A stretch of DNA of 64,000 bases from contig CM068832.1 in assembly GCA_028554795.2 (NCBI GenBank), forward strand, positions 86,999,011 to 87,063,010, in the 5' to 3' direction. Of this stretch, positions 8,468 to 64,000 are shown piece by piece. The notes beneath the pieces were generated by a model, which ran no database searches, was not told the origin of the DNA, and saw only the letters and a list, made by a program, of their open reading frames with translations. The number at the start of each line of letters is the position of its first letter. Position 1 is the stretch's first letter. The DNA is from Sinohyriopsis cumingii (lineage: Eukaryota > Mollusca > Bivalvia > Unionida > Unionidae). Position numbers and translations under genes: made by a program.

Positions 8468-11400
8468 GCATACCTTACAGTTCAGTGTACAGTTACAAAA
8501 TGCATCATAAGCATACCTTACGGCTCAGTGTATAGTTACAACATACATCATACGCCTGCATCATGACTGATTGTACAGTTACAACACACATTAACGTCAT
8601 GCCTTATGGTTGAGTGTACAGTTACAACATACATCATACGCCTGCATCATGGCTGATTGTACAGTTACAACACACATCAACATCATGCCTTATGGTTGAG
8701 TGTGCAGTTACAACATACATCATACGAATGCCTTATGGTTGAGTGTACAGTTACAACATACATCATACGCATGTCCTGTGGTTGAGTGTACAGTTATGAC
8801 ATATAACATACGCCTGCCTTATGGTTGAGTGTACAGTTACAACATGTATCATACGCATGCCTTGTGACTGAGTGTACATTTACAACATACATCATACGCA
8901 TGCATTATGGCTGTATGTATAGTTATGGTTGAGATTACAATTACAACACATTTTCAGCGTGCCTTCTGGTTGAGTGTACATTTATGCCATTCATCATAAT
9001 GCCATTCATCATAAGCATGCCTTACGGCTGAGTGTACAGTTACAACATACATCATACACATGTCTTATGGCTGAGTTTACAGTTACAACGTACATCATAA
9101 GCATGTCTTATGGTTGAGTTTACAGTTACAACGTACATCATACACATGCAATTATGGTAGAGTGTACGGTTATAACATACATCATAAGCATGTCTTATGG
9201 TTGAGTTTACAGTTACAACGTACATCATAAACATGCCTTATGGCTGAGTGTACAGTTAAATTATTCATCATACGCCGGCCTTATGATTTAATGCACAGAT
9301 ACAAAATCCATCATATCCTTGCTTTATGGTTGCGTTTACAGTAACAACTATCATCATAAGCATGCTTTATGTCTGAGTTTACCTATACAATATATATCAT
9401 AGGCATGCCTTATGGCTGAGTGTGAATTTACTACATAATTCATTCGCATGCCTTATGGTGGAGTGTACAGTTACAACATATATCATAAAATGTTTCATGG
9501 ATGAGTTTGCAGTTAAAACATAAATTATTAGCCTGTCTTATGTTTGAGTTTACACTTACGAAATACATGAAAAGCATGGATCATAGGTCAATGTACAGTT
9601 ACAACATACATCATAAGCATGCCTTATGGTCGATTGTACAGTTACAAATACATCATAAGCATGCCTCATGGTTGTGTGTACAGTTATACCATTCATCATG
9701 AGAATGCCCTATCGTTTAGTGTACAACTACAACATAGATCATACGCATACATTATGGCTGAGTGTACAGTTACAATATTAATCATAAGCATGCCTTATAG
9801 TTGAGTGTAGAGTTACAACATACATCACAAGCATGCCTTATCGTTGTGTTTACAGTTACAAATAAGATCATAAGCCCGCCTTGTTTCTCAGTTTACAATT
9901 ACAACATACATCATAATTATGCCTTATGGTTGAGTGTACAGTTACACCATATATCATAGGCACGCCTTATGGTTGAGTGTACAGTTACAAGATACATCAT
10001 AGGCCTGCCTTATGGTTGAGTGTACAGTTACAACATATATCATAAAAATGTTTCATGGATGAGTTTACAGTTACAACATACATTATTAGCCTGTCTTATG
10101 TTTGAGTTTACAGTTACAAAATACATGAAAAGCATGGATCATAGGTCAATGTACAGTTGCTACATACATCATAAGCATGCATTATGGTAGAGTGTACAGT
10201 TACAAAATACATCATAAGCATGCCTAATGGTTGTGTGTAAAGGTATATCATTCATCACAAGAATGCCCTATGGTTGAGTGTACAGCTACAACATAGATCG
10301 TACGCATGCATTATGGCTGAGTGTACAGTTACAATATTCATCATAAGCATGCCTTATAGTTGAGTGTATATTTACAACACACATCATACGCATGCCTAAT
10401 GGCTGAGTGTACAGTTACAACACACATCAAAATCATGCCTTATTTTCGCGCTTACAGTTGCTACGTACATCATAAGCCTGCCTTGTGGATGATTTTACAT
10501 TTACAACATACACATCTTAGGTATGCCTTATGGTTGAGTGTACAGTTACAACATACATCATACGCACGCCCCATGGTTGAGTGTACAGGTACAACATATA
10601 TCATACGCATGCATTATGGCTGAGTGTACAGTTACAATATTCGTCACAAGCATGCCTTATAGTTGAGTGTACGGTTAGAACATATAGCATACCAATGCCT
10701 TATGGTTGAGTGTACAGTTACCGAATACATCATACCCATGACTTATGGCTTAGTGTACAGTTACAGCATACATCATAAACATGCCTCATGGTTGAGTAAT
10801 ATACGAAAAAAATGGCACATGGTCAATGTACAGGGACAACTTACTTCAAATCGATGCCTTATGGTTGTGTGTACAGTTACAACCTACATCATAAGTATGT
10901 ATTATGGTTTAGTTTACAGTTACTAGATACATCACACGCATGTGTTATGGTTGAGTGTACAGTTACGACATACATCATAGGTATGCCTTATAGATGAGTG
11001 TACAGTTACAACGTACATCCTAAGCATGCCTTATGGTTGAGTGTACAGTTACAACATTAATTATACGCAAGCCTTATGGCTGAGTTTACAGTTGCTACAT
11101 TTATTATACGCATGCCTTATGATTCAATGTACATTTACAACATACGTCATATGCATGCCTTATGGATGAGAGTAAAGTTACAACATATATCATAGGGATG
11201 CCTTATGGTTGAGTTTACAGTTACAACATACATTATTAGCCTGTCTTATGTTTGAGTTTACAGTTTCAAAATACATGAAAAGCATGGATCATAGGTCAAT
11301 ATACAGTTACAACATACATCATAAGCATGCCTTATAGTTGATTGTACAGTTACAAAATACATCATAAGCATACCTAGTGGTTGTGTGTACAGTTATACCA

Positions 11401-14400
11401 TTCATCATGAGCATGCCCTATGGTTGAGAGTACAGCTACAACATACATCACACGCATGCATTATGCCTGAGTGTACAGTTACAATATTCATCATAAGCAT
11501 GCCTTATAGTTGAGTGTACAGTTACAACATACATCACAAACATACCTTTTCGTTGTGTTTACAGTTACAAATAAGATAATAAGACTGCCTTGTGGCTCAG
11601 TTTACAATTACAATATACATCATACGCTTATCTTATGGTTGAGTATAGAGTTACACCATACATCATACGAATATTTCATGGATGAGTTTACAGTTGCCAC
11701 ATACATTATAAGCCTGCCTTATGTTTGAGTTTACAGTTACAAAATATACGAAAAGCATGGCTCATGGGTGAATGTACAGTTGCAAGATATTCGTCATAAG
11801 CATGCCTTATAGTTGAGTGTACAGTGACAACATACATCATACTCATGCCTTATGGTTGAGTGTACAGTTACAACATAGATCATACGCATGCATTATGGCT
11901 GCGTGTAAAGTTACATCATAGATCATAAGCTATGCCTTATGGTTGTGTGTACAGTTACAACCTACATCATAAGTATGTATTATGGTTTAGTTTACAGTTA
12001 CAACATACATCATAGGTATACCTTATAGATGAGTGTACAGTTACAACGTACATCATAAGCATGCCTTATGGTTGAGTGTACAGTTACAATATTCATCATA
12101 CGCAAGCCTTATGGTTGAGTTTACAGTTACAACATACGTCATACTCATGCCTTATGGATGAGTATAAAGTTACAAAATATATCATAAGAATGTTTTATTG
12201 ATGAGTTTACAGTTACAACATGCATTATCAGCCTGTTTTATGTTTGAGTTTACAGTTAAAAAATACACGAAAAGCATGGATCATCGGTGAATATACAGTT
12301 ACAACATACATCATAAGCATGCCTAATGGTTGTGTCTACAGTTATTCCATTCATCATGAGCTTGCCCTATGATTGAGTCTACAGGTTGTATAGATCATAC
12401 GCATGCATTATGGCTGAGTGTACATTTACAACATACATCATATGCATGCCTTATGGTTGAGTGTACAATAACCACATATTTAATACTCCTGCATTATCGT
12501 TGGGTGTACAGTTACAACATACATCAAACTCATGCCTTATGGTTGCGTTTACAGTTGCTACTTACATCACAAGCCTGCCATGTGGATGAGTTTACATTTA
12601 CAACATGCATCATAGGTATGCCTTATGGGTGAGTGTACAGTTACAACATACATCATACGCATCCATTATTGCTGAGTGTACAGTTACAATATTCGTCAAG
12701 CATGCCTTATGGTTGAGTGTACAGTTACAACATAGATCATACGCATACCTTATTGTTGAGTGTACAGTTACAACATACATCACAAGCATGCCTTATCATT
12801 TTGTTTACAGTTACAAATAACATTATAAGCCTGCATTGTGGCTCAGTTTACCGTTACAACATACATCATACGCATGCCTTATGGCTGAGTGTGAATTTAC
12901 TACATACATCAAAGGCATGCCTTATGCTTGAGTGTAAAGTTACAACATACATCATAGTTATGTTTCATGGATGAGTTTACAGAACTACATACATTATAAG
13001 CCTGCCTCATGTTTGAGTTTACATTTACAAAATATACGAAACGCGTGGCTCATGGGTGAATGTACAGTTACAACAAACATCAAAGCTATGCCTTATGGTT
13101 GTGTGTACAGTTACAACGTACATCATCAGTTTGTTTCATGGTTTAGTTTACAGTTACTAGATACATCATACGCATGCATTATGGTTGAGTGTACAGTTAC
13201 AACATACATCCTTGGTATGCCTTATAGATGAATGTACAGTTACAACGTACATCCTAAGCATGCCTTATGGTTGAGTGTACAGTTACAACATACGTCATAC
13301 GCATGCCTTATGGCTGAGTGTAAAGTTAAAACATATAGCATAAGAATGTTTCATGGATGACTTTACAGTTACAACATACATTATTAGCCTGTCTTATGTT
13401 TGAGTTTACAGTTACAAAATACATGAAAAGCATGGATCATAGGTGAATGTACAGTTACAACATACATCATAAGCATGCCTTATGGTCGATTGTACAGTTA
13501 CAAATACATCATAAGCATGCCTAATGGTTGTGTGTACAGTTATACCATTCATCATGAGAATGCCCTATGGATGAGTGTACAGCTACAACATAGATCATAC
13601 GCATGCATTATGGCTGAGTGTACAATTACAATATTCATCATCAGCATGCATTTTCGTTGAGTGTATATTTACAACATACATCATTCGCATACATTATGGA
13701 TGGGGGTACAGTTTCAACATAGATCATAGGCATGCATTATGGCTGAGTGTACAGTTACAACATTCATCATAAATGTGCCTTTTGGTTGAGGGTACAATTA
13801 CCACAATCATCATACGTCTGCTTTATCGTTGAATGTACAGTTACACCACACACCAAAATCGTGCCTTATGGGTGCGTTTAAAGTTGCTACTTCCGTCATA
13901 AACCTGCCTTGTGGATGAGTTTACATTTACAACATACATCATAGGTATGCCTTATCGTTGAGTGTACAGTTACAAAATACATAATACGCATGCCCTATGG
14001 TTGAGTGTACAGTTAGAACATAGATCATACGCATGCATTATGGTTGAGTGTACAGTTACAATATTCATCATAAGCATGCCTTATAGTTGTGTGCACAGTT
14101 ACAACATACATCATACGCATGGATTATGGTTGAGTGTACAGTTACAACATGGATCATAAGCATGCATTATGGCTGAGTGTACAGTTAAAACATACATCAC
14201 AAGCATCCCTTATCGTTGTGTTTACAGTTACAAATAACATCATAAGCCTGCCTTGTGGCTCAGTTTAGAGTTACAACATACATCATACGCATGCCTTATA
14301 GTTGGGTGTACAGTTACAACATACATCATAGGCATGCCTTATGGCTGAGTATAAAGTTACAACATACATCATCCGAATATTTCATGGATGGGTTTACAGT

Positions 14401-15710
14401 TGCTATATACATTATAAGCCTGCCTCATGTTTGAGTTTACAGTTACAACATATATCAAAGCTATGCCTTATGGTTGTGTGTACAGTTACAACGTACATCA
14501 AAAGTATGTAATATGGTTTAGTTTAAAGTTGCTACATACATGATACGCATGTATCATGGTTGAGTGTACAGTTACAACATGCGTCATAGGTGTGCCTTAT
14601 ATATGAGTGTACAGTTACAACGTACATCATAAGCATGCCTTTTGGTTGTGTGTACAATTACAACATTCGTCATACGCATGCCTTATGGTTGAGTTTACAC
14701 TTACCACATACACGATACGCCGGCCTTATGATTTAGTGTACATTTACAAAATACATGATAAACATACCTTATGTTTGAGTGTACAGTTAAAACACACATC
14801 ATAAACATGATTCATGGTTGAGTTTACAGTTAAACCGTACATCATAAGCCTGTCGTATGGTTGAATATAGAGTTATAACGTACATCATAAGCCTGTCGTA
14901 CTGTTGAGTTTACAGTTACAACTAACATCATAAGCCTCCCTTATGGCTGAGTTTACCTTTACAATATATATCATAGGCATTCCTTATGGTTGAGTGTAGA
15001 GTTACAAGATTCGTCATAGGCATGCCTTATGGTTGAGTGTACAGTTACAAAATGCATCATAAGCATGCCTTATGGTTGTGTGTTCAATTATACCATCCAT
15101 CATAAGCAATACTTATGGTTGAGTGTACAGTTACAACATACATCATACAAATGCCTTACGGTTGAGTGTACAATAACCACATATTTCATACGCCTGCCTT
15201 ATCGTTGGGTGTACAATTACAACATACATCAACATCATGCCTTATGTGTGCGTTTACAGTTGCTACTTTCATCATAAACCTGCCTTATGGTTGAGTTTAA
15301 ATTACAACATACATCATAGGTATGTCTTATGGCTGATTGTACAGTTACAACATACCTCAAAAGCATGCCTTATGGTTTTGTGCAAAGTTAGAACATACAT
15401 CTTGAACATTTCTTATGGCTGAGTGTAGAGTTACAATATACATCATACACATGTTTCATGGTTTAGTTTAGAGTTACAACATATAATATAAGCCTGCATT
15501 ATGTTTGAGTTTACAGTTACAACATACATGAAAAACATGGCTCGTAGGTGAGTGTACAGTTACAGCATATATCATAAGCATGCCTTATGGTTGAGTGTAC
15601 AGTTAAACATACATCAAAAGCATGCTGTATGGCTGAGTGTACAGTTACAACATACATCATAAGCATGCATTATGGTTGAGTGTACAGTTACAACATGCAT
15701 CAACGACATG
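8468..15710. repeat. 43-bp minisatellite, about 168 units
   Basis: A continuous head-to-tail array with a 43-bp unit built around GAGTGTACAGTTACAACATA and GCATGCCTTATGG. Units differ by point changes, and occasional units carry 1-3 bp indels. Because 43 = 3x14+1, a reading frame rotates through all three phases every 129 bp. This produces many 60-90 codon pseudo-ORFs built of three repeating peptides (MVECTVTTYII, ALWLSVQLQHTSY and GCVYSYNIHH types). Variant units recur in fixed order as higher-order blocks; see findings. There are no unique spacers, so this is not a CRISPR-like array. Confidence 0.97.
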
Positions 15711-15856
15711 CGAAACTATTAACAAAGATTTAAAGTGTTGTGGGTTCTGGTTCTTGTAACAGCTATCTGCAGTTACCTTTTAGATATGCAGATGGAAAAC
15801 GTATATAGGTTATTTTAAAGCCAAATCAAGTAAAGATATACTAATATAATTTGTAA

Positions 15857-55489: not shown

Positions 55490-56826
55490 ATAAGGATTTA
55501 AAGAACTACTGCCCGGTTTCTAATCTCCAATTCATATAAAAAATCTTACAAAAGGTTGTTCAATCCCAGCTTGCATCTTGTCTGAATTCAAACAGTCTTT
55601 TTAGCAATGTACAATCTGCATATCGCCCTTGCCACAAGACACAAATTGTGTCTGCAAATAGATTACACTCCAGCCCAGTTGATCTATGTTGTGGTGTTGC
55701 ACAGGGGTCTGTTCTTGGACCTGTTCTCTACACTCTATACACTCAGCTGCTCTCAAGTGTCATAGATCATCATCCAGTGTCTCACCAATTGTACACTGAT
55801 GACACCCAAATATACAAATCTAGCCACCCAACTGAAGTTGATGCTGCCATCCAAGGTGTAGAGATGTGCATTTCTGATGTGAAATCATGGATGACTTGTA
55901 ACAAGCTGCAGATGAATGATGATAAAACTGAGGCCATTCTGATTACAACACAAAGACTTTCTCATTCACATCCTTTACCTCACACAATAAATATCAGCAA
56001 CACCAACATTAAATTCACACAATCAGTACAAAACCTATGTGTTACTCTGGACAGTACTCTCACATTGCACCAACATGTCATGAACATATGCAAGGCTGCA
56101 TATCTTGAGCTGAGACGCATCAGCTCCATTCTCAGATATCTTTCAGTTGATGCCACTAAAACACTTGTGTGTTCATTACTACTTTCAAGACTGGACTATG
56201 GTAACTCAATTCTGTCTGGTTCATCTTAATATCTACTGCAGAGACTTCAAAAAGTTCAAAACATAGCTGCTTGGATCATACTTAGAGTACCACAATCAGA
56301 GTACACCTCCCCGCTGCTCTGTACCCAACACTGGCTATCCATTCGATCCAGAATCAAACACAACATTAGTTCTCTGTGCTACGTTTCACTGACAGACTCT
56401 AGTCCAACATACCTATCCGACCTCACCTATGTGTACACACAAGCAAGATACTTACACTCCTCTTCTGACAATCATATACTCATTATTCTCACTATGAAAA
56501 CAAAGTCACATGGACAGCATTCTTTTGCATACCAGGGCCCAGCAACATGGAATGAATTGCCCACTGAACTTAGACACAAAGACACAGTGATCCCATTCAA
56601 GAGTGCTCTCAAAACTACTTATTCTGACTACAAAAACAAACTTAATGACTTAATAATGTTAACTACCTTAAATATTCTCAGCATGTTTTTTATGTTTTCT
56701 AATTTCATGGTGTTTGTTTTTGTAATCATATCATTGTGTATGTTTTTATGTTGTCTAATGTTGCAAAGCGCTTAGAGCTTCTAAAGATTAGGCGCTATAC
56801 AAAGTCCTCATTATTATTATTATTAT
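55490..56826 (+). mobile_element. CR1-like LINE remnant (reverse transcriptase C-terminal part)
   Basis: A 5'-truncated non-LTR retrotransposon. The reading starts near KNYCPVSNLQFI (RT palm start). It jumps after SAYRPCH to a later segment, so the RT motif-A region is deleted. It then continues VAQGSVLGPVLYTLYT (motif B area) and LYTDDTQIYKSS, where the catalytic box is YTDD instead of the usual YADD. One frame runs to the end with an in-frame TAA at 56227-56229. The C-terminal part has QRLQKVQNIAAWIILR, YLSDL and ATWNELPTELRHK. The 3' end is 'ttaggcgctatacaaagtcc' followed by an ATT repeat tail. It sits antisense just upstream of the DUF4806 exon at 55467. It cannot be autonomous. Confidence 0.85.
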
Positions 56827-57349: not shown

Positions 57350-57820
57350 TTAACATTTTATAAAAAATAAGCTATTATGTGGAAAAGAAACAACAATGAA
57401 ATAGGATGCAATGTGTTTACGTCTAGTTTTGGAAGGTACCGTCTCTAAGGTACCGTCATAATTGTACCGTAGTTTAATGGGTGGAAAGGCCATTGAAAGG
57501 TAAGGGCAGTGCGGAGACCATCGAGTATGTTCCAGAATAGCTGAATCTTTGTAGATACATAGATCCATTCGTAACTTCAGTCCGCAAGCGAAACACTGTA
57601 CTTCGTATCCCAATCCTGACTCAGGTCCGAAGTAGACAAATCCTGTTCTAGCTAAAACATACGAAGAAGGTAATCCTTCCCTATCCGTAGGCCATTTTTG
57701 AAACGTGTCCAATCGACGGGCACAATCACAATAGTCAGGTAAGAAGACTGGAAAATGGTAGGGTTTGAACTTGGAGTTCTCACTGGATTTCTCACTCGAT
57801 TCTTGCTGTGGCGAAGTCAT
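57350..57820 (-). CDS. BIR-domain (IAP-like) ORF in the virus-like element
   Basis: A 156-codon ORF from ATG. Residues 35-108 form a BIR domain: RRLDTFQKWP at the start, LARTGFVYFG in the middle, and zinc ligands C76-x2-C79, H98-x6-C105 (CFAC ... EHTRWSPHC). No second BIR or RING domain is present, so it is shorter than most cellular IAPs. Known of the family: BIR proteins bind caspases or IAP antagonists and restrain cell death, and large DNA viruses often carry them. A role in delaying host-cell death is inference. The ATG lies 15 nt after the polymerase stop codon (TAG, 57838-57836) and in the same frame. The last ~25 residues, hydrophobic after RRKH, may be readthrough past a lost stop or an unrecognised donor (GTAAAC near 57422). 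Confidence 0.75.
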   Translation of the reverse strand: MTSPQQESSEKSSENSKFKPYHFPVFLPDYCDCARRLDTFQKWPTDREGLPSSYVLARTGFVYFGPESGLGYEVQCFACGLKLRMDLCIYKDSAILEHTRWSPHCPYLSMAFPPIKLRYNYDGTLETVPSKTRRKHIASYFIVVSFPHNSLFFIKC

Positions 57821-57835: not shown

Positions 57836-60800
57836 CTATCCTCTTACAACCAATGTTTTATACCGACATGTCCATACGGCAAAGTAAAGTGGGTGGGAAG
57901 CCGCACTCGCTTCTGCTACACGATTTGATAGACTTTTTCCAAGGGTCGACTGACGATGTGGTGTGTGGGTAAACGTACAATCTTGTTGGGTTGATAGGTG
58001 GTCACTTTCTCTAGACTGCAAGGCTTCTTTCAATACGCCAAAGTTGACCACTCGACTGGTACGATAATTCAGAGTAAGTCCTTTCACTTTACACTTCGTG
58101 TGCACTTCTCCTTGTTTGTCCCAGTATTCGTAGCTGTAATTTTTGGGACCGCCACTGACGAAACTTAGAATCTTGTCATCGGGGTGCTTGTCTGTCCAGG
58201 CTCCTAAACGGTCTCCTTCGATGTCAGGGTGCTGTTGACTCGGGTGATCGATATAAATGCAACTGTCCATGTCAAAGTACAAGACACGTTCCCCTAACAG
58301 TTCTAAAGCTTCGTACAATTTTAAGCGAGCATGAGCTGTCATGTAAGCTGCAATGATGACATTTCCAAAGGGGTCATCTTCTACAAAGTTCAGATCTTCT
58401 TCGTAATTCACCAAGATCAAATCCTCACGAACGACGTCCACGTGTTTCATGAATTTGGCTTTGTCGTGAATCATCTGAAAGTAGCGGGAAGGTTCGGTCA
58501 AATACTCCGTCTTGGGTAAACACGGTCATTGTGCCATTTTACCCCACAAGCAATTTAACATCACTTTGGCAAACAATCGCCTGCCTTCGTTTTTCTCAAT
58601 GTGATCTAAAGTAATGCCTTCTTGTGCCCAGAATTTCTCTCTGAATGTCTTTTGGTCTTTGGGAGTGTGACACCAGGACAGATAGCCACTGGCTTCTTGC
58701 TCAGTTTCAAAAAGGCATCCACGTAGTCTGCGAAAATGCCTTTCTGCGTGGGGTCACCCTTGTGGAATTATTGTGTCTTGGGAAAGTGGCAAATTTCGTA
58801 CACTTCTAACAGTTGGTATCCCATGTTCAGAGCTTTGAACAATTCTACGCTGACCCATGTCCCCGTCAAGGCCCGTTCTTCCTGGGTGTGATGACAAGGT
58901 TGATCTTGCTTGCACGTTTCAGCACAAGTACGGCACAAAGGAAACATAAGTTTGCCTTGGCAATGGCGAGGTAAGACGGGATGGTATAGGTTCGTGGGAG
59001 GCAAAACTTTGCACTTGATCAAGCCTTCGTATTGTCGAATGTTTTTTAGGGCGATGTGTTCGGTGAACAATTGTGGGTGCCCTGCAGGAAAGCAACAATA
59101 TTTGCACACGTAGGGATACAGTGAACACACGTCCAAGTATTTGATTTCTTCTCCTTTCTCTTCGTCAGCTTGGTACAGCAAACAGGTGGCATTGGTCCTT
59201 CCTCCGTACAAACTATCACTTGGGTTCAGGGGGTCCATGAACTGGTAACTTTCCATGAGACGTTTAAACTCGGGATCGGTGTTCAAACGGTGATTGTATT
59301 TGTGTTCCCACATTTCCACCACTTGGTATCCTTCCTGTTCTAACTTTAGGCGTCGCTGACAAATGGCCTGGTACAAGTCTTCCATGGTTCGTTGTAAGAA
59401 CTGATTTTTAGTGCCGCGGTCAGGGTAACAGACGGGACATCCGTGAAATAAGCAACCGTTAAACTCGTACATGATCTTGGGGTTTTCTAAGTCCCAGCCA
59501 TCGACCGAATGCATTCCGATGATCTTTTCGCCCTGTCCGTTGCGGGCATGCTGAATCCATTTGTCTTCCTTGTCGCACAAGTAATGCAACCAGCATGGGG
59601 CTTTGACCAAGTATTGACGTTTGACATAGTTGGTTGTTTGAGGACTGATGACAGCCACAGTGTTTTCAAGCATGAATCGTTGTCGGTAGACTAAGGAACA
59701 CGCTTTGGCAATGGTGCAAGCCTCTTTTAAATGATCAACCCCTCCATGTTCCATGAACAGTTCTCGAAATTTTCCACAGCATCGCCGTAAAATGTCCACG
59801 TCGGAACGACGATACTTTAGCATTTCTTCCTGAAAGTCGAAAGGGTCGGAGGCGTGAGCCTGGTACCAAGCGTAGAAAGTTTCTCGTTCGGTACGCATGT
59901 TGTCAGGGTCGTAATAGTGAGCCTGAGGCAAATGGGGTAGAACGGCGTGTTGATTGGCTTCTGTATTGAAAAAGTGTGGAAAGTACCCTTTAGCCATTTC
60001 TGTCATTCCAAACATTTTAGGCATTCGACTCAAAGGCATGGCTAAGTAGCTCATCGAATCTTTAAACTGCACTTGTCCCACTTGCATGAAAATGATTTTG
60101 GCTCCGTTCAAAGTGATTTTAGGACGCTCGATGCCACGTTCCGTATAACATCTCAAAAGAAACTGTCCATCGTATCCGGAGAAATTGTGAGCCATCACCG
60201 TGGCATGGTGATGACATTCTCCATAATAATGTTCGATGTCCTCTTGGCTCCACGTCTTGTCGATGGGGTCTAAGACCCATTGTGTGAAATCGGCTAGTGT
60301 TTCGGTCCTTGAAAGATTTTTTCACGCCCTCCAGGAATCTTACTGCAGTGAGGGCAATAACTCAAGATAGGTTCTTGAATCACTTCTCGCACGCTCGATG
60401 AGCCACGCAGAAATTAGGAATGTGAATACCGGTCTCTTGCATGCATTCGAAATCGAAAAAGATGAAATTGCCTTTCTTCTTCTTGTGACCATCCTCTTTC
60501 TCTGGTTGGGATTGGTATTTTTGCATGTAGCATTAGTGTTCCAAGTCCACGATGCAGTGACAAATGTGACATTTTTTCTTTCCTGAACATACGTGTGCCT
60601 TGGTACTGTTGATACATAGACCTTGTCCACACATTGGGCACAATCTCAGGAGTTGACAAGCACATTTCTTCTGTGAACCTTGCATCTTCAGATGTTGTTG
60701 GTAACAGGCAGGGCTGACAAATGTGCGCAGACAAGCAGGACAATGCACTGGTTCTTGCCCTTCGCTCAGACAGGGTTGAGAGGCCAAACATCCTGAGCAT

Positions 60801-61879
60801 TTCGATCCACAATGTTTGTGTTGCTCTCGATTATTATAACCATCATAAGTCACATTTCTCACAGTAATATTTGTATCCCAGGAATCCAGTGATAGTGGTA
60901 ATGGTATCGAAATGGTCATCGTGATGATAGAGGTGAATGTATTTTCCATCCTTAAAGTCTTTCCCTCGAAACAACAGAGACCCGCGCACTTCTTGAGGGT
61001 GCACTTTCAAGGTGTATCGTGGAGCTAGGGCATCTTGCAATTTTTGCATCTCAGGAATGCCACAGGATGTGTCTTTGGACAGGCATGCTTGTTGTAACAG
61101 AAGTTCTGCTTCATTTCGTTGTTTGGCTCGGTTCGATTTTCGAATGTTCTCCCAGGCTCTTTTCCATTCTACCATGTGTTCTTGTCGGCATAAGTTCATC
61201 CCACCACGATGGCTCGGGCTAAACACATGTGGTCTTGAAAATTATTAATTTGGACAAGACTTGTTTTGGTAATGCGAAGGTTGTTGACCAATAAGGTCTT
61301 TCTGCATTGTCCGGTCCCTTGAGGAGGAGAGACGTGGGTCATGTCCAGTGTGGCTTTTCCATCGGTGATGTCAAACTGGTCATTAGATTGTTGCACGTGT
61401 TGAATCTTGTCCATGACTTTGGAAGTGGTCAATTCTGCAGGGCTGCTAAACTCGATCCAAACAGGGGATTTCAAGCCGTCATGTTGTATGGAAAGTCTCA
61501 AGCGATCATCTTCTTTGGGTTGACATTATCGCTTGAGTGTGGTGAGCAAAGAATCCCACATGTCGGTGATGAACCCTTCTGCTTTCTCTAACAGTACTTC
61601 AGACTTGAAATCTTTAAACTTCACTGTGTATTTGTAAGCCGTAGTTCTAAATTTTCTAGAGGGACGCTTTTCCGTCTCTCGAATGTCATAGTACTTTTCA
61701 GGGTTGACTAAGGGTGGTAAACTTTGTTTAGAGGGTTTGGATTCTGGTTCACTCATGTCCACTTCAAAATCACTGGCATGAATTTGTGCCAAGACTTCAG
61801 CCCTGGTACGAGGCGATAGATCACGTTTCTGCCTCTTACTTTCTTCTTCTTTCTTCTCAAATGAATTGGATCATTTCAT
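57836..61879 (-). pseudogene. Protein-primed family B DNA polymerase, Polinton/adintovirus-like, decayed
   Basis: The open pieces line up in one order over about 4 kb. N-terminal region (61879-60843): SPVWIEFSSPAELTTSK and similar. Cys/His-rich zinc region (60850-60540). Exo I as FIFFDFEC (about 60445-60465), Exo II as HNFSGYD (about 60172-60195), Exo III as YRRSDVD (about 59803-59820). Pol motif A as YLDVCSLYPYV (about 59112-59142), motif B-like LFAKVMLNCLWGK (about 58540-58585), motif C as YFDMDSCIY (about 58255-58280). This order and the DxxSLYP form mark protein-primed PolB of Polinton/Maverick and adintovirus elements. It is broken: stops at 61873-61871, 61528-61526, 60535-60533, 60382-60380, 58770-58768 and 58528-58526, plus frame changes near 61200-61225, 60845-60860, 60280-60390 and 58600-58770. 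The exact spot of each shift is uncertain. It is non-functional as it stands, or the sequence has many indel errors. Confidence 0.85.
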
Positions 61880-62012: not shown

Positions 62013-62469
62013 ATGGAAGAGACCACCAAGATCGAACGTTTCATCAGAGCTTTGCGAGGGGTCATTAGAAAATTCTCTTCAGACCAGCCGAGGGACTACT
62101 CTCCTTCCTTTCAAGATAAAAGTCAAGATACTTGCTATATCTGTCAGAAGAAAGGGCATTGGTCTTCAGAGTGTCCAGACCGTTAAAAAAGAAAAAAAAG
62201 GGGTTAGAAGAGACAAAAGTCAAGATAACTGTTATTATTGTCAAGAAAAAGGACATTGGTCACCAGACTGCCCAAAAAAGAAACAAGAGGAGTCAGAAGA
62301 AGAGAGGGATTCTTCAGAGGAAGAGGAAGAAGAAGAGGAAGAAAACAGACAGGTGAAGAAAAAGAAACAGGAGAAGAAAAGAAGGGAAGAAAGTGAGGAG
62401 GAAGAGGAGGAAAAGACTATGACGGTGAAGAAATTAAAAAAACAGAGAGTGAACAATGAGACAGAATAA
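62013..62469 (+). pseudogene. Double CCHC zinc-knuckle protein, second half out of frame
   Basis: The ATG at 62013 follows a TATA box. The first frame encodes 57 residues with one zinc knuckle, CYICQKKGHWSSEC (C-x2-C-x4-H-x4-C, 62133-62174), and stops at TAA 62184-62186. A second knuckle, CYYCQEKGHWSPDC (62230-62271), lies in another frame that is open to TAA at 62467-62469. It is followed by a long Glu/Lys/Ser-rich, highly charged tail. The two knuckle segments are related copies 97 nt apart, so the copy distance itself is out of frame by one. CCHC knuckles bind single-stranded nucleic acid in retroviral Gag and related proteins; a nucleic-acid-packaging role here is inference. AATAAA at 62529-62534 is a probable polyadenylation signal. 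Confidence 0.6.
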
Positions 62470-62647: not shown

Positions 62648-62703
62648 GGCAATTGAAAGTCTATCTCTTTTCGAGAGACGTGGATGGCCCTGAAAAGGGC
62701 CTT
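62648..62703. repeat. Left arm of an inverted repeat shared by two 3' ends
   Basis: 56 nt that match, in reverse complement, 63770-63825. The shared blocks are ggcaattgaaagtc, tcttttcgagaga and atggccctgaaaagggcc. The arms hold the 3' ends of the two divergent genes. Confidence 0.85.
62686..62701 (-). terminator. Histone-type 3' stem-loop after the coiled-coil gene
   Basis: On the minus strand this is GGCCCTTTTCAGGGCC: a 6-bp stem with a 4-nt TTTC loop, matching the metazoan histone mRNA stem-loop consensus. It begins 23 nt after the stop codon (62726-62724), a normal distance for histone messages. A conserved purine-rich TCTCGAAAAGA follows about 10 nt downstream and resembles a histone downstream element, the U7 snRNP site. 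The sequence match is direct; processing by SLBP and U7 is inference. Confidence 0.75.
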
Positions 62704-62723
62704 TTTTGGTGTAAGGGGTGAGT

Positions 62724-63293
62724 TTAAACAATCAACTTTAACTGTCTTAAGCCTTTGCCATGGCCAAGGCCTACTTCTGGACTGCGTACTGTTGATGATG
62801 ATTTCGTTGAAATCACTAAGGGTGGTGCAGTAGGCGTAGTCACAGGGTTGGAGTGTTTAGCTTGGGAAGGTCGTATTCTCTTCGGCCGTAATAAAGAAGT
62901 CTGATACATTTGTTTCAGACTTCTTAACTCCGCTAAAATGTCTAACAGTACCGTGACCGTTTGATTTTGACACCCTTGTTTCTTTGCTGCTGCTTCTTCT
63001 TCTTCTTGTTTTTTTCTTACCTCTTCTTCTTGCTGCTGTTGCTGTAGGAGAAAAGCTTGTTCCGCTTCCTTTTGCTGTTGTATAAATTTCTCCAATTCTT
63101 CTTTCTGTCTCTGTCTAAAATTTTCCATGTGCGGTAATGAAGGAGAAGGTGACGAAGGTTCAGGAACAAATTCTTGCAAGGTAAAAAAATCCACAAAATC
63201 CCAATTCACCTCTTCTGAAAGTAAGTCTGGGTTCCCTTGGGTAGTCTCCACCATCAGTGCACCCAAACTGATCGTTTTCTGAGTTTCCGTCAT
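62724..63293 (-). CDS. Unknown acidic Gln/Glu-rich coiled-coil protein with a histone-like 3' end
   Basis: Starts at MTETQKTISLGALMVE (ATG 63293), chosen because it is the first ATG below the TATA box; the upstream extension has no ATG. It is 189 residues long and uninterrupted. Order: an acidic N-terminus with a Ser/Pro stretch (PEPSSPSPSLP), a Gln/Glu/Lys coiled coil (about 57-100, with five consecutive Gln), a short helix (VTVLLDILAELRSLKQMY), then a basic Ser/Pro/Thr tail. I recognise no family. It is intact, unlike the polymerase. TATA (GTCTATATAG on the minus strand, 63350-63341) lies about 50 bp upstream, and the stem-loop follows the stop. Confidence 0.65.
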   Translation of the reverse strand: MTETQKTISLGALMVETTQGNPDLLSEEVNWDFVDFFTLQEFVPEPSSPSPSLPHMENFRQRQKEELEKFIQQQKEAEQAFLLQQQQQEEEVRKKQEEEEAAAKKQGCQNQTVTVLLDILAELRSLKQMYQTSLLRPKRIRPSQAKHSNPVTTPTAPPLVISTKSSSTVRSPEVGLGHGKGLRQLKLIV

Positions 63294-63513
63294 GTTGAAA
63301 AACTGTCGCTTAGATTGACTGCGCACAGGCGCTAGCGAATCTATATAGACTATGTGACGTCACAGACTGCTCTCTTCGGATTGGACGTGGGCTGACTGAA
63401 TTTTGTAACGCGTGTTTGGATTGGTCAACAAACTCAATCCGTTTCAATCCTTCCTCCCCCTATAAATAAGTACAGTTCACTGCATTCCTTCACCTGTTAC
63501 TCAGCACCCCAAC
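63294..63513. promoter_or_regulatory. Divergent histone-like promoter
   Basis: A 220-bp gap between two start codons. Minus TATA CTATATAG (63341-63348); palindromic CRE GTGACGTCAC (63354-63363); two inverted CCAAT boxes (ATTGG at 63380-63384 and 63420-63424); plus TATAAATA (63461-63468). Paired TATA boxes with shared CCAAT boxes are typical of divergent core-histone gene pairs. Confidence 0.65.
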
Positions 63514-63759
63514 ATGTGGACCGACGTACAATCTTCAACGCTTGTGTCTTCGATGATGTTCCGGACGGACATATCAATGTATGTCCGATCCAACTGGACA
63601 GTTATCCACAGGACAGACACCAGCCTGTGGATGCGAAGAATCTTATATGGAGCATCAAGGATGCCTCAAAAGAGTCTTAATCTATGGTCCTGCAGTCAGG
63701 CGCAGCCTAAGGTCAAGAAGAAGATGTCACAGATGCCCTTTATGTTAAGGGTATATTAA
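63514..63759 (+). CDS. Small unknown ORF with a histone-type 3' end; reading frame uncertain
   Basis: An ATG about 46 bp below a TATA box opens an 81-codon frame ending in TAA (63757-63759), 12 nt before the stem-loop. The other two frames are also protein-like in part. One from ATG near 63580 is Cys-rich and ends in an Arg-rich SLRSRRRCHRCPLC. Another reads NACVFDDVPDGHINVCPIQL and stops near 63673. The true product may therefore be frame-broken, or may use a frame other than the longest one. I recognise no family, and it is not a histone. Confidence 0.4.
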   Translation: MWTDVQSSTLVSSMMFRTDISMYVRSNWTVIHRTDTSLWMRRILYGASRMPQKSLNLWSCSQAQPKVKKKMSQMPFMLRVY

Positions 63760-63769
63760 CATAAAACCA

Positions 63770-63825
63770 AAGGCCCTTTTCAGGGCCATTCCTATCTCTC
63801 GAAAAGATCTTGACTTTCAATTGCC
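63770..63825. repeat. Right arm of the inverted repeat shared by two 3' ends
   Basis: Reverse-complement match to 62648-62703. It covers the stem-loop, the downstream element and a gactttcaattgcc block. Confidence 0.85.
63772..63787 (+). terminator. Histone-type 3' stem-loop after the small ORF
   Basis: GGCCCTTTTCAGGGCC preceded by ACCAAA, as in histone messages (consensus CCAAA before the stem). The downstream segment TCTCTCGAAAAGATC matches that of the minus-strand gene. No AATAAA lies between the ORF and the stem-loop. Confidence 0.75.
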
Positions 63826-63953: not shown

Positions 63954-64000
63954 CTGTTCCATTTCCCTTAGTCCCAAGACAGTCCCACGATTTATTCCCC

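Follow-up and report, generated by a model that had tools for sequence, protein, structure and literature searches.

A minus-strand gene for a predicted helical protein, carried by a decayed relative of the polB-bearing animal DNA viruses, probably ends its message by the mechanism that forms the 3' ends of replication-dependent (RD) histone mRNAs. We place the probability of this reading at roughly two in three. The window (the whole 64-kb stretch of DNA that was analyzed) had previously been read as holding two non-histone genes of a virus-like element, each ending in a histone-type stem-loop. The part of this sequence-only reading that stands is a complete 3'-end module after a conserved non-histone ORF, located by a broken viral-type polymerase gene and apparently kept in one relative; the second gene does not stand.

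Histone-type stem-loops within a repeated module

The 16-mer GGCCCTTTTCAGGGCC is present in two exact copies in the window, at 62686-62701 on the minus strand and at 63772-63787 on the plus strand, both in the sense orientation of the open frame that precedes them. The minus copy begins 22 nt 3' of the stop codon of the minus ORF and the plus copy 12 nt 3' of the stop codon of an 81-aa plus ORF. The motif ACCAAA lies immediately 5' of the plus stem, and it is found at the minus copy too, where three extra A separate it from the stem. These results agree with the sequence-only reading, which had described the 16-mer as occurring twice in sense, a distance of 12-23 nt from stop to stem, and ACCAAA before the plus copy. 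Searching for GGCYCTTNTCAGRGCC with up to two mismatches returned no further match in the 64 kb besides the two copies, and the same search of 100 dinucleotide-shuffled versions of the window gave a mean of 0.07 matches, a maximum of one and never two. When the window was scanned with the pattern GG-N4-TTN[AC]-N4-CC, requiring a 6-bp stem with every position paired, these two copies were again the only matches.

The likeness to the histone 3' stem-loop claimed for both copies was borne out by Rfam for the minus copy and fell just under the cut-off for the plus copy. Against RF00032 (Histone3), whose cut-off is 34 bits, the minus copy scored 35.2 bits at 62661-62706 (E = 1.6e-6, whole-window scan) and the plus copy 33.5 bits, 0.5 bit short (E = 1.8e-7, 1.5-kb scan). 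Histone3 at the minus copy was the sole Rfam family above cut-off across the whole 64 kb. Stretches of 26 nt at both copies are predicted to fold into a 6-bp stem with a 4-nt loop at -11.4 kcal/mol; 5 and 3 of 200 shuffles folded equally well. For the 59-nt stretch of the minus copy this was the case for 3 of 200 shuffles, and the 59-nt plus module folded at chance level (48 of 200).

Both stem-loops sit inside a single 57-nt inverted repeat (I1), the copies of which are located at 62648-62704 (minus) and 63769-63825 (plus) and are 88% alike. With the copies aligned on their stems, 5 of 22 positions match just upstream, 88% of 57 match within the module and 4 of 16 match beyond it. The inner edge of the repeat lies 3 nt before the stem. 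Each module has a purine core that begins 15 nt 3' of the stem, as observed without a separate chance control for the core. In the minus copy it is AAAGAG (62665-62670), within the downstream-element-like CTCTCGAAAAGAG (62665-62677); in the plus copy it is AAAGA only, in CTCTCGAAAAGA (63796-63807), at the same position relative to the stem. The downstream element of mouse histone genes is described as having the purine core AAAGAG, which pairs with U7 snRNA (PMC7026596). A cnidarian study gives the stem-loop and a purine-rich downstream element, without a poly(A) signal, as the hallmarks of such ends (PMC5011920). Judged by its sequence, the histone-type 3'-end module after the minus ORF is complete, with a stem-loop and a downstream element at the right spacing. 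Neither the downstream element nor the membership of both copies in a single repeat had been noted in the sequence-only reading. Pairing with the 5' end of human U7 (used as a stand-in for the host U7) was dropped as support since it was no better than in shuffles, fractions of 0.417 and 0.281 of 1000 shuffles pairing equally well.

Past the purine core, both modules end in the same 14 nt, GACTTTCAATTGCC (62648-62661 on the minus strand and 63812-63825 on the plus strand). The tail of a homolog discussed below, P0008, retains the residues N-C-Q in this region.

The minus-strand gene, its relatives and its neighborhood

The minus module follows a conserved single-frame ORF at 62724-63293 (minus strand), which encodes 189 aa when begun at its ATG and whose frame stays open upstream to a GTG at 63326. 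Using the frame without its Met (62724-63290) as a query against a database of 5.8 billion proteins, we identified 20 homologs among 411 candidates, on contigs of 0.9-2.3 kb. All except one of these are 57-81% identical to the query across 55-100% of the gene; the remaining one is 62% identical across 23%. A Pfam scan of the 21 family members taken singly (E <=1) gave 28 weak families, with no histone among the 25 listed. The predicted structure is a single helix spanning residues 53-132 with poorly modelled or disordered ends (mean pLDDT 67.4, pTM 0.26). We read the minus ORF as a real gene, and it is not a recognizable histone. A histone fold for its protein was rejected on the absence of a histone from the Pfam families listed and the prediction of one long helix. 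The sole PDB match of the family profile, at residues 53-91 with E 0.0019, contained no stretch that passed by itself and was taken as coiled-coil noise. Searches with the family alignment (A1) found no relatives in IMG/VR, and none were found in a profile search of genome contigs.

Conservation of the signal is visible in one of the 20 homologs, at the protein level; the other 19 show no sequence beyond their ends and are uninformative either way. This homolog, P0008 (68% protein identity), has lost its stop codon and runs 31 residues past the usual end. Compared with one frame of the 3' UTR in the window, its tail has 13 identities in 31 residues, all of them from the stem-loop onward. The best of 1000 shuffles reached 9 identities. 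Comparison with 2114 stretches from elsewhere in the window gave a single score of 11, probably due to the plus module, which alone scores 11, and otherwise no score above 9. Since the identities start at the stem and none lie before it, P0008 appears to have kept the stem-loop and downstream element while its stop-to-stem stretch diverged, and this pattern suggests use of the module. One residue of the stem-loop frame differs, being Phe in the window and Ile in P0008. This requires a change in the U-A pair that closes the stem, which would remain paired, as A-U, for a certain codon only. Such a swap of U-A to A-U is described as reducing SLBP binding without abolishing it (PMC6827988).

The distribution of poly(A) signals differs between the two modules. 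On the minus strand, the first ATTAAA is 5207 nt and the first AATAAA 8435 nt 3' of the stem; the density of AATAAA and ATTAAA on this strand is one per 451 nt window-wide. Weak poly(A) variants are found 42 and 161 nt after the minus stem. The plus module has an AATAAA 70 nt after its stem, and histone genes of other animals are described as carrying downstream poly(A) signals as well (PMC1924863). A neighboring plus-strand zinc-knuckle ORF has an AATAAA 59 nt after its end, as read by eye, and is without a histone stem-loop. For the minus gene, we consider it likely that the histone 3'-end pathway is the one in use.

A type B DNA polymerase is encoded on the same strand at 57836-60198, split between two frames. 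The piece at 58768-60198 matches PF03175 (DNA_pol_B_2) with E 5.4e-32, and the piece at 57836-58501 matches the DNA polymerase family phrog_1907 with E 2e-12. A PDB search with 58768-60195 was empty at E <=0.01, and neither polymerase piece had relatives in IMG/VR. The element in the window is broken and decayed. Pfam matches to rve integrase, hexon, penton or capsid were not found among the 21 ORF pieces given, in a window that ends at 64000, and no OTU-like domain was matched by the broken fragments 5' of the polymerase match. The earlier description of the element as Polinton- or adintovirus-like holds for its type B polymerase (PF03175) and was not matched by an integrase or capsid in the ORFs scanned. 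We interpret it as a probable integrated, decayed relative of the polB-bearing animal DNA viruses that is adintovirus- or Polinton-like in its polymerase.

Another homolog, P0020, would tie the minus gene to this polymerase neighborhood. It consists of the N-terminus of the minus-gene protein followed by a stretch that matches, at 19 of 24 residues (E 4e-10), an ORF piece located upstream of the polymerase match on the same strand (61196-61501), which itself matches no family. P0020 could be the product of rearrangement or of misassembly.

Several further features were observed around the element. The zinc-knuckle ORF (zf-CCHC, E 4.8e-7) is located at 62013-62469 on the plus strand in two frames, the first running to 62186 and the second, by eye, to 62469. 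It contains two repeats of 64 nt, 77% alike and 97 nt apart (62114-62274, plus strand), between which the ORF shifts frame. Next to the broken polymerase, the minus-strand ORF at 57350-57820 encodes a BIR (inhibitor of apoptosis) domain (E 1.2e-13) and could be one of the element's accessory genes. A reverse transcriptase fragment (RVT_1, E 3.3e-10) lies near the element at 55648-56229 on the plus strand. A tandem array of 7.2 kb occupies 8468-15711, with a 43-nt unit (a period of 129 nt is detected too) in about 169 copies with 73% matches.

The plus-strand module and alternative explanations

The frame that precedes the plus stem-loop, an 81-aa open frame at 63514-63759, is not supported as a gene. 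It has no Pfam or PHROGs match. Homolog searches with the two other frames of the plus ORF, in one case with residues 46-94 only, were empty, and codon scores trained on the ORFs of the element favor different frames along its length. The claim of two genes is not upheld for this ORF, given a codon signal that changes frame and no homolog in two of three frames; perhaps it is a broken gene. The accompanying claim that neither ORF resembles a histone remains valid, the minus protein having a helical predicted fold and no histone among the Pfam families listed for it and the plus frames having no Pfam family.

The interval between the divergent ORFs (63327-63513) was scanned for motifs, without a chance control. 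TATA-like motifs were found at 63342 and 63461, TGACGTCA at 63355, and ATTGG, the inverted form of CCAAT, at 63380 and 63420; overall, the interval holds TATA-like, CCAAT-like and CRE-like motifs. This arrangement bears on the possibility that the element captured a divergent pair of host histone genes, of the H2A-H2B or H3-H4 type. What is left of this pair would then be its promoter and its two 3' modules, with the coding parts diverged or replaced, and the signal may have been inherited rather than selected. Such a capture would fit the layout seen here, in which TATA-like and CCAAT-like motifs separate two short divergent units that each end in a stem-loop. Related groups are also described as having viral histone-like genes, one case being a clam-dataset adomavirus with adintovirus-like virion genes (PMC11071296). 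On the other side, no histone is among the 25 listed of the 28 Pfam families returned for the 21 family members, and the predicted fold is one long helix. Retention of the 3' module in P0008, without the stop-to-stem stretch, suggests use rather than simple inheritance. We regard capture of a histone pair as unlikely, if still deserving of attention.

Another possibility is that the histone likeness is incidental and that the 57-nt inverted repeat forms the ends of a small DNA transposon or a palindrome inside the element. Its copies point towards each other with 1064 nt between them, and their last 14 nt are identical even though they are past the purine core. However, no target duplication of 2 nt or longer was seen by eye at the flanks of 62648 and 63825, and an inner repeat edge located 3 nt 5' of the stem also speaks against this explanation. 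Nor would a transposon end account for the Rfam matches, the suitably spaced purine core and a stem-loop that is a perfect match to the histone type. This origin of the repeat appears improbable. We find it hardly credible that the stem-loop has another function instead, whether in termination between converging genes, in packaging, as an origin, or in the trafficking or replication of an RNA: the minus module does sit between the converging zinc-knuckle ORF and minus gene, and a viroid loop that shares the letters UUUUCA is described as serving replication and trafficking rather than 3'-end cutting, yet this viroid is presented as lacking the extended stem required by SLBP (PMC6827988), whereas a full stem, the ACCAAA flank and a downstream element are all present here.

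Possible use of the signal and comparison with known systems

Under the reading that we prefer, processing of the minus-gene message by the histone pathway, an intact relative of the element would have its stem-loop bound by the host SLBP, while the purine-rich sequence 15 nt past the stem would be recognized through pairing with the host U7 snRNP. The message would be cut between these two sites, and the product would be a short, intron-less, non-polyadenylated mRNA. In this way the message would be tied to S phase and placed outside poly(A)-based control. The binding of SLBP and U7, the cleavage, the timing and the benefit to the virus are steps that we infer from sequence features. We give even odds to a broader proposal, namely that a lineage of animal DNA viruses relies on SLBP and the U7 snRNP, and not on polyadenylation, to finish the message of a conserved non-histone gene, the synthesis, translation and destruction of which would be timed to host DNA replication. 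If this is true, the virus would gain for a non-histone gene a ready-made S-phase switch and a bypass of poly(A)-based control. It would also mean that the histone 3'-end pathway can be borrowed by unrelated genes.

Searches for the signal elsewhere in IMG/VR gave no match to the exact stem with its downstream element. The combination CTCGAAAAGA...CAATTGCC was found in 19 stretches, none of which had a stem-loop of the pattern sought. A 19-mer around the stem matched three contigs, which had no Histone3 at the Rfam cut-off and ORFs that looked phage-like by eye, and these were set aside as chance matches. In open-licence PMC, no viral mRNA ending in a histone stem-loop was described in the titles and abstract starts of the matches listed. 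To this extent the searches agree with the earlier statement that there is no described example. By term search, "stem-loop" and "polyadenylation" are absent from the main text of PMC11071296, and a review of viral histones (PMC9145170) gave no occurrence of stem-loop, SLBP or polyadenyl in such a search. The nearest precedent found in open-licence PMC is a plant viroid loop that has the letters of the histone loop and is described in other roles.

This precedent is loop 27 of Potato spindle tuber viroid, a terminal loop whose sequence equals that of the histone mRNA loop and which was modelled on it (PMC6827988). Unlike the transcript considered here, the viroid is a plant non-coding RNA and is described as being without an extended stem (PMC6827988). 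The roles given for its loop are replication and trafficking, with neither SLBP nor 3'-end processing involved in that account (PMC6827988).

Adintoviruses and animal Polintons resemble the element in having a type B DNA polymerase of the DNA_pol_B_2 family, and differ from it in that no integrase, hexon or penton match was obtained here in the ORFs scanned. The features described as defining adintoviruses are a hexon and a polymerase that carries an N-terminal OTU-like domain, and these viruses are said to encode an integrase too (PMC11071296). The same source gives "Cah" as a class of helical capsid-surface proteins named by predicted fold only (PMC11071296). The minus protein shares the generic helix-rich look of this class, which is a likeness and not an identification. 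The late or structural role suggested in the sequence-only reading is at most a possibility for a protein known here by a predicted long helix.

The closest resemblance is to the 3' end of RD histone mRNAs (RF00032, processed by SLBP and the U7 snRNP), messages that are described as uniquely non-polyadenylated in animals (PMC12803260). Common to both are the 16-nt stem-loop, the preceding ACCAAA, the short distance from stop to stem and the purine-rich element 15 nt past the stem, together with the lack of a nearby canonical poly(A) signal at the minus copy. They differ in that the minus ORF is not a histone and adjoins a viral-type polymerase, and in that the plus copy has an AATAAA at 70 nt. 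A viral link to host histone biology is also seen in the viral histones, such as the "Histoid" genes of adomaviruses and those of other DNA viruses. Those viruses encode histone-like proteins, whereas in the element described here the likeness is confined to a histone-like RNA signal.
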